A stretch of DNA of 64,000 bases from Hyphococcus luteus (GTDB lineage Bacteria; Pseudomonadota; Alphaproteobacteria; Caulobacterales; Parvularculaceae): contig NZ_PJCH01000001.1 in the NCBI RefSeq assembly GCF_002943565.1, forward strand, positions 186,001 through 250,000. The letters are read 5' to 3'. Below, piece by piece: positions 16,815 through 20,340 of the stretch (position 1 is its first letter; each line of letters opens with the position of its first letter). A program made the translations under genes and the position numbers. Below the pieces are notes generated by a model that saw nothing but the letters and a program-made list of their open reading frames with translations, had not been told where the DNA came from and searched no databases.

Positions 16815-17786
16815 TTATTCCGCCACGCGCAGGCGCGCCAGATCCCGCGCGCGCTGGCGTTTCAGATCGTGCCGCGCGGCGCGCTTCACGAGAATATAGA
16901 GAATGAAATAGGACATGGCCGCGCCAAGTCCTGCGAGCCAGATCGGCAGGTTCTCGAAGATCGTCGTAAACCGCTCATAGGTGAGGCCCATGGCCTCCGC
17001 AACGCCCGGCGCTTCCTGGCCGAGAAGGAGGATCGCCCCGACGCCGGTCATGGCGAAGGCGAGGAGCCCCGCCAGCAACGCGCCCACCGTCACGCCCATA
17101 TCGGCGCGCTCTTCAGCCTTGGAGATGATCATCTTCGAGGGATCGCCGCCCAGCGCCTGCGTCGCGGCGAACAGGGCGCGGGTCCGCGCGGCGCGTTCCT
17201 CAGCCGACAAGGCTTTCTTTTCGTCTGACTTGTAGTCGTCGAAATCGACGACGGGCTTTGCGTTTAAGACGCGATCAGAAACATATTCCGGTTCACATTC
17301 CGCCGCCGGATGAACGTCCGAACTCGGAACAACAAGCGCCGCGTCGGTCGGCATCAGGAAGAGCGATTTTTCCGCCGCGCGCCGGCGCACGAGACCATCG
17401 AGCGTCACGAGTTCGTTGTTCACGAAAGCTTTGCTCCAGAGCTCGAAGGCGTTCGCCGCGCCGAGCTTGTCGCCGGCGTTCAGCTTGCGGAGCACGGTGG
17501 AGCGCCGCCAGTTGTCTTCGCCGATATTGAAAATCAGCGAGACCAGCGCGTCATGTTCATTCTGGTTTAAGGGCGCGCGAACCGTGTCGCCAATCAGCTG
17601 CTCAATTGGCTGAACGTCATCCTTCAACAGCCGTTCGGCATCGCCTTCAGTGACGCTCATGCCGTGACGCGCAGATCCTGTATGGCCGTAGCCCACGGTC
17701 CATTGCTCCGTCGGCGCATAATGCGCCGACATGCGCAGGCCCTCATACCCCTTGATCAGATTGAGACCGGTCTCTCCCGTCCGCAT
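16815..17786 (-). CDS. GH24 lysozyme-like protein with C-terminal membrane helices; catalytic Asp replaced
   Basis: 323 aa from ATG 17786 (a GTG at 17816 is also possible). Residues 1-150 are a phage-lysozyme (GH24) domain: GETGLNLIKGYEGLR with the catalytic Glu at 15, then QWTVGYGHT. Counting from Glu, the T4-lysozyme Asp position (+9) is Ala, while the Thr at +15 is kept. A linker of about 70 residues follows, with two hydrophobic helices near 227-252 and 273-295 and a basic tail. The protein is thus fixed in the inner membrane by its C-terminus, unlike a phage endolysin. Loss of Asp may weaken or change activity, though some family members tolerate substitution. No phage genes are nearby. 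Function unknown. Confidence 0.75.
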   Translation of the reverse strand: MRTGETGLNLIKGYEGLRMSAHYAPTEQWTVGYGHTGSARHGMSVTEGDAERLLKDDVQPIEQLIGDTVRAPLNQNEHDALVSLIFNIGEDNWRRSTVLRKLNAGDKLGAANAFELWSKAFVNNELVTLDGLVRRRAAEKSLFLMPTDAALVVPSSDVHPAAECEPEYVSDRVLNAKPVVDFDDYKSDEKKALSAEERAARTRALFAATQALGGDPSKMIISKAEERADMGVTVGALLAGLLAFAMTGVGAILLLGQEAPGVAEAMGLTYERFTTIFENLPIWLAGLGAAMSYFILYILVKRAARHDLKRQRARDLARLRVAE

Positions 17787-17816
17787 CAGACCCGTTCGAA
17801 CCCCTCTGGCCGTCAC

Positions 17817-18223
17817 TCCCCACTGAGGGAGTCATACTCAGGAAGCCTTGCCCGCGAAACCCGGCGCATTTCGCGGCTTCCCCCCTGGTTAATCGCCGTT
17901 AACGATTCCTACCATGCCGGGGCCCGGTTGGGTAGACGGCCCCTCGAATCCGGCGGATTTTCCGGCTCTCGCGGCGCCGAAACGGCACAGATCGGACGGC
18001 GGCCGACGCGGCTCCCTCGCCCGGGATTTTCCCCAGCGTCTGAATTCCATCTCTAACCATCTGTTTTTCAAACTTTTCCGCCGATTCGGACGGCCTCCTC
18101 GAGCGGGCGATTCTGGCACAAGTCTTGTGTGTATGGGGACGGGAAAGCCTGTCCGCAGGACGGAGGCAGGGCCGGTTCGGCCTTGATGCCGGATCCGGGC
18201 GCGGGGGCGTTTCGAGGTGAGAT
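17817..18223. other. 407-bp intergenic region ahead of PEP-CTERM gene
   Basis: No credible gene: the frames present (for example 17914-18186 plus) are Arg/Pro-rich and lack a ribosome site. It contains the promoter region of the GH24 gene on the minus strand and, on the plus strand, a sigma-54-like site (listed separately) followed by about 95 nt of leader. GAGGTGA at 18214-18220 is a strong ribosome-binding site for the gene starting at 18224. Confidence 0.5.
18114..18128 (+). promoter_or_regulatory. Sigma-54-like promoter element
   Basis: TGGCAC at 18114-18119, five bases, then TTGT at 18125-18128. The consensus is TGGCAC-N5-TTGC; the -24 half is perfect and the -12 half differs in its last base (GT instead of GC), which normally weakens the site. 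It faces the PEP-CTERM gene with a start about 95 nt downstream. PEP-CTERM genes in several bacteria are controlled by RpoN with PrsK/PrsR, which makes this placement meaningful. Confidence 0.45.
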
Positions 18224-18448
18224 ATGTTGGGCAACGGCATCCATAACATCATTGCAGCGGTGATCATCGCCGCGGCGATCCTGTGGACAGGCGGGTTTGG
18301 CGGCGGACGCGACGACGGCGTCATGACCGACGAAGAATTCGCCGCGTGGCAGGCGCGCGCCGTGGGCGACATCCGCAACGACATTGTCGTCAATTGCGGC
18401 TGCTGCGGCGACAAAGGGCCCCGGAGGGCCGCCGCGGAGTCTTTTTAG
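18224..18448 (+). CDS. N-terminal part of PEP-CTERM protein, ends at TAG after a T-run
   Basis: 74 codons. A signal-like hydrophobic stretch covers about residues 8-27 (IIAAVIIAAAILW), then a Gly/Asp linker and the acidic segment MTDEEFAAWQARAVGDI, ending with a CGCCGDKGP Cys cluster. A strong Shine-Dalgarno (GAGGTGA) precedes ATG 18224. Translation in this frame stops at TAG 18446-18448, straight after TCT TTT. The frame one base back stays open to 18813 and carries a proline-rich acidic domain and a PEP-CTERM sorting signal, so these are most likely two halves of one gene (about 196 aa if joined at the T-run). It may be a true frameshift mutation, a programmed -1 shift, or a base error. No function beyond surface sorting can be inferred. 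Confidence 0.6.
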   Translation: MLGNGIHNIIAAVIIAAAILWTGGFGGGRDDGVMTDEEFAAWQARAVGDIRNDIVVNCGCCGDKGPRRAAAESF

Positions 18449-18813
18449 CGCCCCGTCCGGTTCCGACCCGGCTGGCCGGATATAATCCGGTCGCCCCACA
18501 GGAAACGCGGCGGGTTCCGACAACCGAACCCTTGCCGACGCCGCCTCCGGCGGGCGAGAGCGAACCGCCTTTGCCGCCGCTTTACGATCCTCATTGGCCG
18601 GATTTCCCGCCGGTGATCGTGCCGCCGGTCTATATTCCGCCGGGCGAGGAGCCGCCCTGCGACGAAGACAATCCCGACGATGATGAATGCGACGAGCCGG
18701 AAGAGCCCGAAGAGCCGCCGGTGGACGCGCCGGAGCCCGGCACGGCGTTTATCCTGGGGCTGGCGGGGCTCGTTTACTGGCGGTTCAGACCGGCCGGACG
18801 CCGGAGCGCCTGA
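18445..18813 (+). pseudogene. C-terminal part of PEP-CTERM protein in the -1 frame
   Basis: This frame has no start codon of its own near its useful beginning (only a TTG far inside), so it depends on a -1 shift from the 18224 gene at the T-run 18442-18446. It encodes a Pro/Glu/Asp-rich stretch (about 90 residues with repeats of PP, EEPEEPP) and ends in a textbook PEP-CTERM signal: P-E-P-G-T followed by the hydrophobic helix AFILGLAGLVYW and a basic tail R-F-R-P-A-G-R-R-S-A. PEP-CTERM proteins are cut by exosortase and released into, or held at, the exopolysaccharide matrix. No exosortase gene is in the window. Two short DNA segments that could base-pair (TCCGG at 18456-18460 and CCGGA at 18476-18480) lie 7 nt past the stop. 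Confidence 0.6.
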
Positions 18814-18888: not shown

Positions 18889-20340
18889 CTAGAGCAAAAC
18901 GATGGCGGCAAGTCCCAGAAACACGAAAAAGCCGACAATATCCGTGATCGTCGTGACGAACACCGCCGAGGAGACGGCGGGGTCGGCGCCGGCGCGCTGC
19001 AGGCCGATGGGAATGAGAATGCCGGCAAGGCCCGCCGCCAGAAGATTGATGATCATCGCTGCGCCGACAACGCCGCCAAGGCGCATCGCCTCGCTCTCCC
19101 CGCCCCAGCCGCTCATGTAAAACCACACGCCCGCAAGCGCGCCCATAATGACGGCGAAGATGACGCCATTGAGGAACCCCACCAGCGCCTCGCGAAAGAC
19201 AATGCGCGCGGCGTTGGAGGCGGTGAGGTCTTTCGTGGCGAGCGAACGCACAACAACGGTCAGCGTCTGGGTGCCCGCATTGCCGCCCATGGAGGCGACG
19301 ATGGGCATCAGGATGGCGAGCGCCACCACCTGGCCGATGGCCGCGTCGAACAGCGCAATGACTAGCGAGGCGAGGATCGCGGTCGCAAGGTTTACGGCGA
19401 GCCAGGAAAAGCGCGAACGCACCGTTTCGAACACCGTGTCGGAAAGACCAGTGTCGGCCTCGACGCCGCCAAGCGCGAGCATGTCTTCCTGGGTTTCCTC
19501 GCGCACCATCTCGACAACGTCGTCGACGGTGATCATGCCGATCAGCCGTTCGGCGTCATCGACGACAGGCGCGGAGATGAGGTTATATTGCTCGAAGAGA
19601 TAGGCGACTTCTTCCTGGTCCATCACCGCCGGCACGGGATGCATGTCCCGGCTCGTCATGATGGTTTCAATCACCGTGTCCCGCGGCGATTTCAACAGCG
19701 TCGACAGTGGCACCGAGCCCACCGGCTTGAACGCCGGATCGACGACGAAGACTTCGTAGAACCGGTCCGGCAACTCCTCCGTGCCGCGCAGGCGGTCGAT
19801 GATCTGGCCGACGGTCCAGAAAGCCGGCGCCGCGAAGAACTCGCGCTGCATGAGGCGCCCGGCGCTTTCCTCCTCGAAATCGAGCGCGGCCCGAAGCGCC
19901 AGCCTGTCCTCGATGGTCGCATAGGACAGAATCTCGGCCTGCTTTTCCGCGTCGAGATCCTCAAGAAGGAAGGCCGCATCGTCGGTGTCGAGTTCAGCGA
20001 CGGCCTTGGCGACTTTCGCCGGCTCCATCGCCTCGATGATGTCCTCGAGAAGGTCCTCTTCGAGCTCGGCCAGCACCTCCGAATGAAGCGCGCCGCCGAG
20101 GAGCGTAATCATCCCCTCGCGGTCTTCTTCCTGCAAAAGACCGATGAGGTCGGCGATGTCGGCGGGGTGGAGTTCGCGCGTGAGGCCCTCGAAGGCTTCA
20201 GCGTCTTCGGCTTCGATGGCGTCCGCAACCGCGCGCACGAACTCCGGCGACAGCGTGCGGTCTTCCGCAAACTGAGCGTCGCTATCGGACGTCTCGTTTT
20301 CCGGGCGCGCTTCTTCTTCGATGGGCGCGGTTTCGCTCAT
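18889..20340 (-). CDS. mgtE: Magnesium transporter MgtE
   Basis: 483 aa. The N-terminal acidic superhelical domain covers about residues 30-150 with D-I-A-D-L-I-G-L-L and D-D-A-A-F-L-L-E-D-L repeats. A CBS pair follows at about 155-285 (D-F-E-E-E-S-A-G-R-L-M ... LIGMITVDDVVEMV). Five transmembrane helices follow from about 310, including the signature GGNAGTQT in the pore helix. It is a Mg2+ channel gated by cytosolic Mg2+ bound between the CBS and N domains. The start at ATG 20340 has GAGGGG upstream. It reads in the same direction as DUF1467, rnj and coaX, with about 100 nt between it and the DUF1467 stop, so it may be the last gene of that string. Confidence 0.93.
   Translation of the reverse strand: MSETAPIEEEARPENETSDSDAQFAEDRTLSPEFVRAVADAIEAEDAEAFEGLTRELHPADIADLIGLLQEEDREGMITLLGGALHSEVLAELEEDLLEDIIEAMEPAKVAKAVAELDTDDAAFLLEDLDAEKQAEILSYATIEDRLALRAALDFEEESAGRLMQREFFAAPAFWTVGQIIDRLRGTEELPDRFYEVFVVDPAFKPVGSVPLSTLLKSPRDTVIETIMTSRDMHPVPAVMDQEEVAYLFEQYNLISAPVVDDAERLIGMITVDDVVEMVREETQEDMLALGGVEADTGLSDTVFETVRSRFSWLAVNLATAILASLVIALFDAAIGQVVALAILMPIVASMGGNAGTQTLTVVVRSLATKDLTASNAARIVFREALVGFLNGVIFAVIMGALAGVWFYMSGWGGESEAMRLGGVVGAAMIINLLAAGLAGILIPIGLQRAGADPAVSSAVFVTTITDIVGFFVFLGLAAIVLL

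Follow-up and report, generated by a model that had tools for sequence, protein, structure and literature searches.

The window that we analysed, a 64,000-nucleotide stretch of contig NZ_PJCH01000001.1 from Hyphococcus luteus, contains a short gene (ORF1) that ends at a run of T and has a continuation (ORF2) in the -1 frame, with a phage-type lysozyme gene and an MgtE-type transporter gene as its neighbours (Table 1). ORF1 comprises an N-terminal hydrophobic helix and the conserved RAVGDIRNDIVVNCGCCG block, and it terminates at the slip site, where its final codons are GAG TCT TTT TAG and five consecutive T residues (T5) span positions 18442-18446. Both the strong ribosome-binding site and the end at TAG right after TCT TTT, which the initial annotation had ascribed to this gene, are indeed present. 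Except for one His, no basic residue precedes the helix here, and it is possible that the helix acts as an anchor and not as a classical signal peptide. ORF2 is made up of LAPRPVPTRLAGYNP, a Pro/Glu-rich linker, and a PEP-CTERM-like tail, and its C-terminus, APEPGTAFILGLAGLVYWRFRPAGRRSA, has the PEP motif, a hydrophobic helix, and then RFRPAGRRSA. While this layout agrees with the Pro/Glu-rich part and PEP-CTERM signal that had been read in the -1 frame, the match of ORF2 to the Pfam PEP-CTERM model (PF07589; E 0.0037) scores only 17.8 bits and stays under the 20.7-bit cut-off. Searching the whole genome yielded 17 PEP-CTERM matches that pass the cut-off, each in an open frame without internal stops (211-297 aa), and the split gene is not one of them. 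Gene-calling software can be expected to report no more than a short fragment at the split gene. The region is single-copy in the H. luteus genome (4.92 Mb, 16 contigs).

Table 1. Features of the split gene, its putative RNA signals, and its neighbours, in window coordinates.
Feature	Position	Strand	Remarks and basis
Phage-type lysozyme (PF00959), divergent neighbour	16815..17816	-	C-terminal hydrophobic segments, by eye
Ribosome-binding site of ORF1, GAGG	18214..18217	+	6 nt 5' of ATG; read from sequence
ORF1, 0 frame	18224..18448	+	74 aa; stop TAG at 18446-18448; relatives
Internal SD-like element, GGAGG	18423..18427	+	12 nt 5' of NCTTTTT; anti-SD scan
Slip site, TCT TTT TAG	18440..18448	+	U_UU.U tetramer, 0-frame stop directly 3'
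ORF2, -1 frame extension	18445..18813	+	122 aa; from TTA (18445); relatives
Stem 1, 5' arm, CCCGTCC	18452..18458	+	Begins 6 nt after the UUU codon
Stem 2, 5' arm, GTTCC	18460..18464	+	Inside stem 1
Apical hairpin, GCCGG, 7-nt loop, CCGGT	18475..18491	+	Folding
Stem 2, 3' arm, GGAAAC	18501..18506	+	RNAalifold/pair test
Stem 1, 3' arm, CGGCGGG	18508..18514	+	First position mismatched here, six pairs form
PEP-CTERM-like sorting signal	18727..18789	+	PEP, hydrophobic helix, Arg-rich end
MgtE-type transporter, downstream neighbour	18889..20340	-	Family match

Occurrence of the split gene and its genomic neighbourhood

To find relatives, we searched 62 genomes of one alphaproteobacterial family (f1), inferred from the names of the matched records to be the Parvularculaceae, with profiles of ORF1 and ORF2. 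The ORF1 profile gave 41 matches, of which 38 are the split gene and three are unsplit proteins of genus g4; an ORF1 search of 60 related genomes gave matches in 31. Record names among the matches include Marinicaulis, Parvularcula, Parvularculaceae, and unplaced Alphaproteobacteria MAGs. The split gene is also carried by a named strain, Amphiplicatus metriothermophilus CGMCC 1.12710 (L056). In the order sample of 398 genomes, no ORF1 match fell outside this family (all 41 are within it), and the single match in the class sample of 385 genomes was the H. luteus genome itself. Matches to the ORF2 profile came from 39 of the 62 family genomes. In addition to the 38 with the split gene, they include G165, in which ORF1 was not found but the edge of a contig carries part of ORF2 beside the MgtE gene (G165:C184:4-243); the split gene is probably present there and cut by assembly. 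Neither a fused nor a stand-alone ORF2 was found in the 62 genomes with this profile (E <= 1e-5).

The loci that we read number 38, one per genome and with that of H. luteus counted in. In L009, a contig end truncates ORF2, and the profile matched the remainder of an ORF2 on another contig of the same genome (G015). Three alignments were used: A1 with 21 of 30 rows, A2 with 22 of 30 (L009 lacking a complete ORF2), and A3 with 35 of 38, from which L016, L021, and L029 were left out as near-identical to L014/L015. Codon and codon-position counts were based on 36 of the 38 rows (without L009 and L070). All rows are related by descent, and the counts are not independent events.

In NCBIfam, only XDP1 was matched (E 0.087), and in Pfam, ORF1 gave SHOCT at E 0.085. 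No relative of solved structure was found (best E 0.95), no Rfam family was identified (one match at E 0.73, below the gathering score), and neither Pfam nor NCBIfam detected a transposase domain. With a single copy in the H. luteus genome, fixed neighbours, and no transposase domain, the split gene does not meet the criteria for a mobile element, and it is a new, non-mobile chromosomal family that uses a known kind of recoding.

Among 36 named loci, all from genomes within the 38 that have the split gene, the lysozyme gene adjoins the split gene in every case, and the MgtE gene follows downstream in 26, with some loci being cut by contig ends. Near full-length matches to the lysozyme neighbour also occur in 18 of the 24 family genomes that yielded no split gene. 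In two neighbouring genera, the corresponding site in all six g7 and three g4 genomes examined (L113-L118, L102, L120, and L121) holds an unsplit gene of about 360-450 aa, which has a similar start (MNG and then a hydrophobic helix) and a different C-terminal part that ends around GSDY and is without PEP-CTERM. The g4 proteins match the ORF1 profile at E values of 4e-4 to 6e-8, extending to about position 56 at best (G030), and the likeness of the g7 proteins to ORF1 rests on visual comparison alone. The MgtE and lysozyme genes of G002, which belongs to the window's genus, are only about 350 bases apart (L119, G002:C21:381700-382700), the lysozyme match contains one internal TGA, and the split gene has apparently been lost. 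We regard it as an even question whether the frame-split form is a long-kept trait of this one family, which is part of the proposal, taken up below, that frameshifting governs protein sorting.

The -1 frame ends in a PEP-CTERM-like tail in all 37 loci with a readable end, where ORF2 is 97-169 aa long, and the motif itself is PEP in 34, AEP in two (L006 and L069), and SEP in one (L056). Exosortase (PF09721), with three matches in the H. luteus genome, was found in 58 of the 62 family genomes, including all 38 that have the split gene, and in 1 of 14 known genomes used as a control. It was not found in G178, G033, G295, and G188. Since exosortase is present in 58 of the 62 genomes and two of the four without it are incomplete, its co-occurrence with the split gene is weak evidence.

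The slip site and the signals around it

The arrangement of ORF1, slip site, and -1 frame ORF2 recurs in 38 of 38 loci, each with a 0-frame stop directly after the slip site. ORF1 terminates exactly there in 37 loci, and in L070, which has an intact slip site, an additional upstream nonsense codon reflects either decay or an assembly error. The motif NCTTTTT plus stop is found in 36 loci, with GGTTTTTAG in one and CCTTTCTAG in another; the individual forms are TCTTTTTAG (13 loci), TCTTTTTGA (10), TCTTTTTAA (6), CCTTTTTAG (6), GCTTTTTAG (1), CCTTTCTAG (1), and GGTTTTTAG (1), and the stops are TAG in 22, TGA in 10, and TAA in six. Common to all 38 is U_UUY followed by a stop, as U_UU.U in 37 and as U_UU.C in one, L069 being the natural variant with a UUC slip codon. 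Likewise, the T5 run is kept in 37 loci, and the single exception, CCTTTCTAG, has just three T in a row, which breaks the homopolymer yet preserves re-pairing of tRNA-Phe (UUC to UUU), although this variant rests on a single assembly and could be an error. Slippage of tRNA-Phe by one base, as had been suggested in the initial annotation, fits this UUC variant. Moreover, L080 has the two-tRNA form G_GGU_UUU followed by UAG.

Beyond the slip site, the -1 frame opens with L-x-x-R-P-x-P-x-x-x-A-G-Y-x-P in the 38 loci, save that S replaces the first P in L006 and A replaces the G in L031. The -1-frame residue that follows U_UUY and the stop is variable (T 14, A 12, G 8, R 2, and D 2), yet the TTG|G combination, which would remove the stop, was never seen in the loci read. 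According to the initial annotation, a T4 or T6 run that gives one open frame in homologues, or an unrelated second frame in relatives, would refute recoding; the former occurs in 0 of the 38 loci, and ORF2 is homologous in all of them.

Upstream of the slip site, a feature that the earlier annotation did not include is an SD-like element. When the 38 rows were scanned with the known 16S rRNA tail sequence, the strongest mean pairing was with GGAGG (-7.96 kcal/mol, against a background mean of -0.96 and sd of 1.70). GGAGG or GGGGG is present in 27 of the 38 rows, at a spacing of 12 nt in 24, 13 in two, and 9 in one; both are lacking from the other 11, several of which have AAAGG- or AAGGAG-like stretches.

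On the downstream side, RNAalifold (35 rows) predicted a CCCGYY/RRCGGG stem that begins 6 nt past the UUU and stacks on GUUC/GAA; the covariation term is small (-0.45 kcal/mol). The 6-bp core of stem 1 is unbroken in 34 of these rows and all seven pairs form in 24, while pairing is lost at the seventh position of stem 1 in 10 rows and at the innermost position of stem 2 in 20. For the 17-pair structure, 91.5% of cells pair compared with a shuffled mean of 90.7 (reached by 3 of 500 shuffles), changes on both sides occur at five pairs (reached by none of 500 shuffles, and sliding by 1-3 columns gives 0-3), and the covariation score is 0.105 versus 0.088 when shuffled (2 of 500); the four outer pairs are invariant. 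In L026, a paired change is synonymous on both sides, and in L006, a C-G pair is now U-A with both amino acids altered (Pro to Ser, and Gly or Arg to Glu), a double change whose two sides protein selection would not couple. Even so, the apparent covariation rests on few events, and the percentage paired is hardly above that of shuffles. Folding of the window sequence gave a structure that contains both stem 1 and the apical hairpin, at -36.2 kcal/mol (z -2.3 versus shuffles). Searched against the 62 family genomes, an RNA model of the region matched strongly just once per genome in the 38, each time on the coding strand; some of the 38 places also gave weaker opposite-strand matches, and there were four weak matches at other places (G010:C178, G094 twice, and G004:C1:94209). 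At the end of stem 1, a second GTTCC (18514-18518) repeats that of stem 2 and might offer an alternative pairing, and its GTT encodes Val in 23 of 23 Val rows. As for the TCCGG/CCGGA stem placed 7 nt further on in the initial annotation, it can pair fully in only 3 of the 38 loci, and we rejected it in favour of the longer conserved stem. The elements that we infer to be stimulatory are at proper spacing, the SD-like element being present in 27 of 38 rows (12 nt upstream in 24) and the stem core in 34 of 35.

Counts of pairwise differences by codon position (36 rows) were 9743, 7436, and 21231 in ORF1, 26968, 23890, and 38128 in ORF2 read in the -1 frame, and 1734, 1371, and 3839 in the first 15 ORF2 codons. 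Such codon-position bias points to purifying selection on both frames, with ORF2, right from its first codons, being selected as protein in the -1 frame. The third-position excess is lost in the last eight ORF1 codons (2087, 1486, and 1662), as would be anticipated if third positions there are held by RNA signals. Codons at the signal positions are, moreover, mostly rare yet held fixed when compared with their use in seven nearby genes: TTT at the slip site in 35 of 36 rows (22% of Phe codons nearby), TCT in 27 of 27 Ser rows (8%), AGG at the SD-like element in 27 of 31 Arg rows (5%), TTA in 26 of 36 rows (1%), GTT in 31 of 31 Val rows (18%), and CGG in 32 of 32 Arg rows (24%). Elsewhere in ORF1, the Asn codon before Cys-Gly-Cys-Cys is AAT in 34 of 36 relatives (AAT makes up about half of the Asn codons nearby), and it creates a TTG in the -1 frame.

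Explanations for the frame break

We consider conserved, non-mobile programmed -1 ribosomal frameshifting at a chromosomal gene to be the best explanation, with a probability of roughly 0.9, though no expression data lie behind it. What the comparison of sequences shows is the conserved dual-frame organisation, slip motif, stop, and stem, together with an SD-like element in most members. That the shift takes place in the cell is inferred, as are its efficiency, the topology, processing by exosortase, and the idea that its purpose is a set ratio of plain to sortable protein.

A sub-case of frameshifting, not exclusive of it, is that the shift is obligatory, with only the long product mattering and the short form being a by-product. 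That ORF2 and its tail are kept in every member read speaks for this, but tetramer motifs are usually inefficient, pointing to the short form as the majority product, and because all three stops occur, the sensor cannot be any single release factor, so that sensing of the prfB type is excluded; an obligatory shift remains possible, if the less probable case. Far less plausible is that ORF2 is a second gene, translated from its own start or through translational coupling by the internal GGAGG. There is an SD-like sequence upstream of ORF2, many rows have a -1-frame TTG near codon -17 (18 of 38 at precisely that codon), and TTG is the first ORF2 codon in 10 of 38. Against this, 11 of the 38 rows (L005, L006, L008, L020, L024, L025, L026, L028, L031, L069, and L080) have no ATG, GTG, or TTG from the last upstream -1 stop to ORF2 codon 12, which excludes independent initiation of ORF2 as a general route. 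Moreover, the GGAGG here is 17 nt from the TTA/TTG codon, a spacing too far for initiation, ORF2 alone would lack the N-terminal export helix, and coupling would need neither a fixed TTT codon nor a fixed stop position. Slippage of RNA polymerase on the T5 run, which would produce a mixture of mRNAs, is still harder to uphold, for while the run is present in 37 of the 38 rows, it is short, CCTTTCTAG would let tRNA-Phe re-pair with only three T (if that one assembly is not in error), and the SD-like element, the stem, and the position of the stop are signals that act on ribosomes. Finally, a pseudogene, an assembly error, or one state of a phase-variable gene can be dismissed as a general explanation. 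A frame break at a T-run is indeed their classic sign, and L070 has its extra nonsense codon, but the same break recurs in 38 assemblies (including the one-contig genome G004 and L056), the codon-position bias indicates purifying selection in both frames, and the number of T is constant (albeit in a comparison between species, not within one). The initial annotation had left mutation or sequencing error in the T5 run as an alternative to recoding, and it is recoding that the homologous second frame and the shared break favour.

Under programmed frameshifting, ribosomes would translate ORF1, with its membrane helix and conserved Cys-containing block, up to NCU-UUU-stop, where pairing of GGAGG with 16S rRNA behind the ribosome, the stem 6 nt ahead, and the stop codon may slow them. 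Here, tRNA-Phe would re-pair one base back (UUU or UUC to UUU), either in the A site or in the P site with the stop in the A site, both of which give Phe-Leu, and a fraction of the ribosomes would go on with Phe-Leu in the -1 frame. Unshifted ribosomes would yield a one-helix protein of about 70 aa, and shifted ribosomes one of about 170-250 aa (196 here), which also has a Pro-rich linker and, at its end, a PEP-CTERM-like tail that an exosortase probably handles. PEP-CTERM proteins usually bear a signal peptide (PMC1569441, available to us in part). With the sole N-terminal helix encoded in ORF1, the tail is likely to be useful only after frameshifting, and surface sorting of the long product is our inference. 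In E. coli with the IS3 pseudoknot, the part of PMC4066793 at hand ranks the tetramers as A_AA.G >> U_UU.C > U_UU.U > others, which makes U_UU.C and U_UU.U the second and third of 16, and gives 0.26-5.6% frameshifting for the six best. With such tetramers not exceeding 5.6% there, the efficiency here may be low. As to whether this is a recoding switch for destination, with the frameshift ratio setting the share of chains that receive an exosortase tail, we see the odds as balanced.

Relation to known recoding systems and meaning for the family

Among known systems, prfB is a chromosomal gene with a +1 frameshift, an internal SD, and a slip at the stop codon. The split gene is similar in being chromosomal, with an internal SD and a slip at the stop, but here the direction is opposite, any stop codon serves, and the role is C-terminal, whereas prfB is autoregulatory. 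Sites of the barley yellow dwarf virus type read GGGUUUU-UAG, and they share with the split gene a UUU with UAG at once thereafter, L080 having G_GGU_UUU-UAG; the virus, however, uses long-distance pairing, whereas here there is a bacterial cellular gene with a local stem. In signals of the dnaX/IS911 type, there is likewise an upstream SD-like element, a slip motif, and a downstream structure (PMC4066793, in the portion accessible to us), but the split gene has a single-tRNA U_UUY tetramer with the stop directly 3', and its product gains a C-terminal sorting tail. According to the same portion, U_UU.[U,C] is among the prevailing Z_ZZ.N tetramers of IS1/IS3-family transposases (PMC4066793). 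Unlike these, the split gene is not a transposase and exists as one copy, syntenic beside the lysozyme and MgtE genes.

Precedent for recoding that changes destination comes from the arterivirus -2/-1 frameshift, whose product ends in a part with a different membrane segment and is directed to a different cell compartment (PMC5009743, as far as the text was available), albeit in an animal virus, with another direction and no exosortase tail. E. coli copA is, like the split gene, a cellular membrane-protein gene with two products through a -1 shift, but the shifted product is the shorter one in copA and the longer one here (PMC5009743, same extract). The split gene has the C-terminal PEP, hydrophobic helix, and basic end of PEP-CTERM/exosortase proteins (PMC1569441, same portion), though here the tail is in a different frame from the N-terminal helix. 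The GeneTack survey, to the extent that its text was accessible, lists four confirmed families (magnesium chelatase, DUF111, DUF772, and spore germination), and its main text has no mention of PEP-CTERM, exosortase, or Parvularcula, which does not exclude an unnamed cluster in the supplements (PMC3711429). In literature that pairs PEP-CTERM, exosortase, or Parvularculaceae with frameshift, we found no bacterial recoding coupled to a sorting signal, most subscription journals being outside this search.

Programmed frameshifting in an ordinary bacterial gene is a rare kind of control, and the split gene couples recoding to a protein-sorting signal. Equipping a fraction of the chains with an exosortase sorting tail by frameshift, a use that is itself inferred, looks to be new for bacteria. 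The family offers 38 natural variants for dissection, including a UUC slip codon and all three stops. If the proposal is true, one mRNA would give rise to both an inner-membrane form and a sorted form of the protein, in a fixed or regulated proportion.
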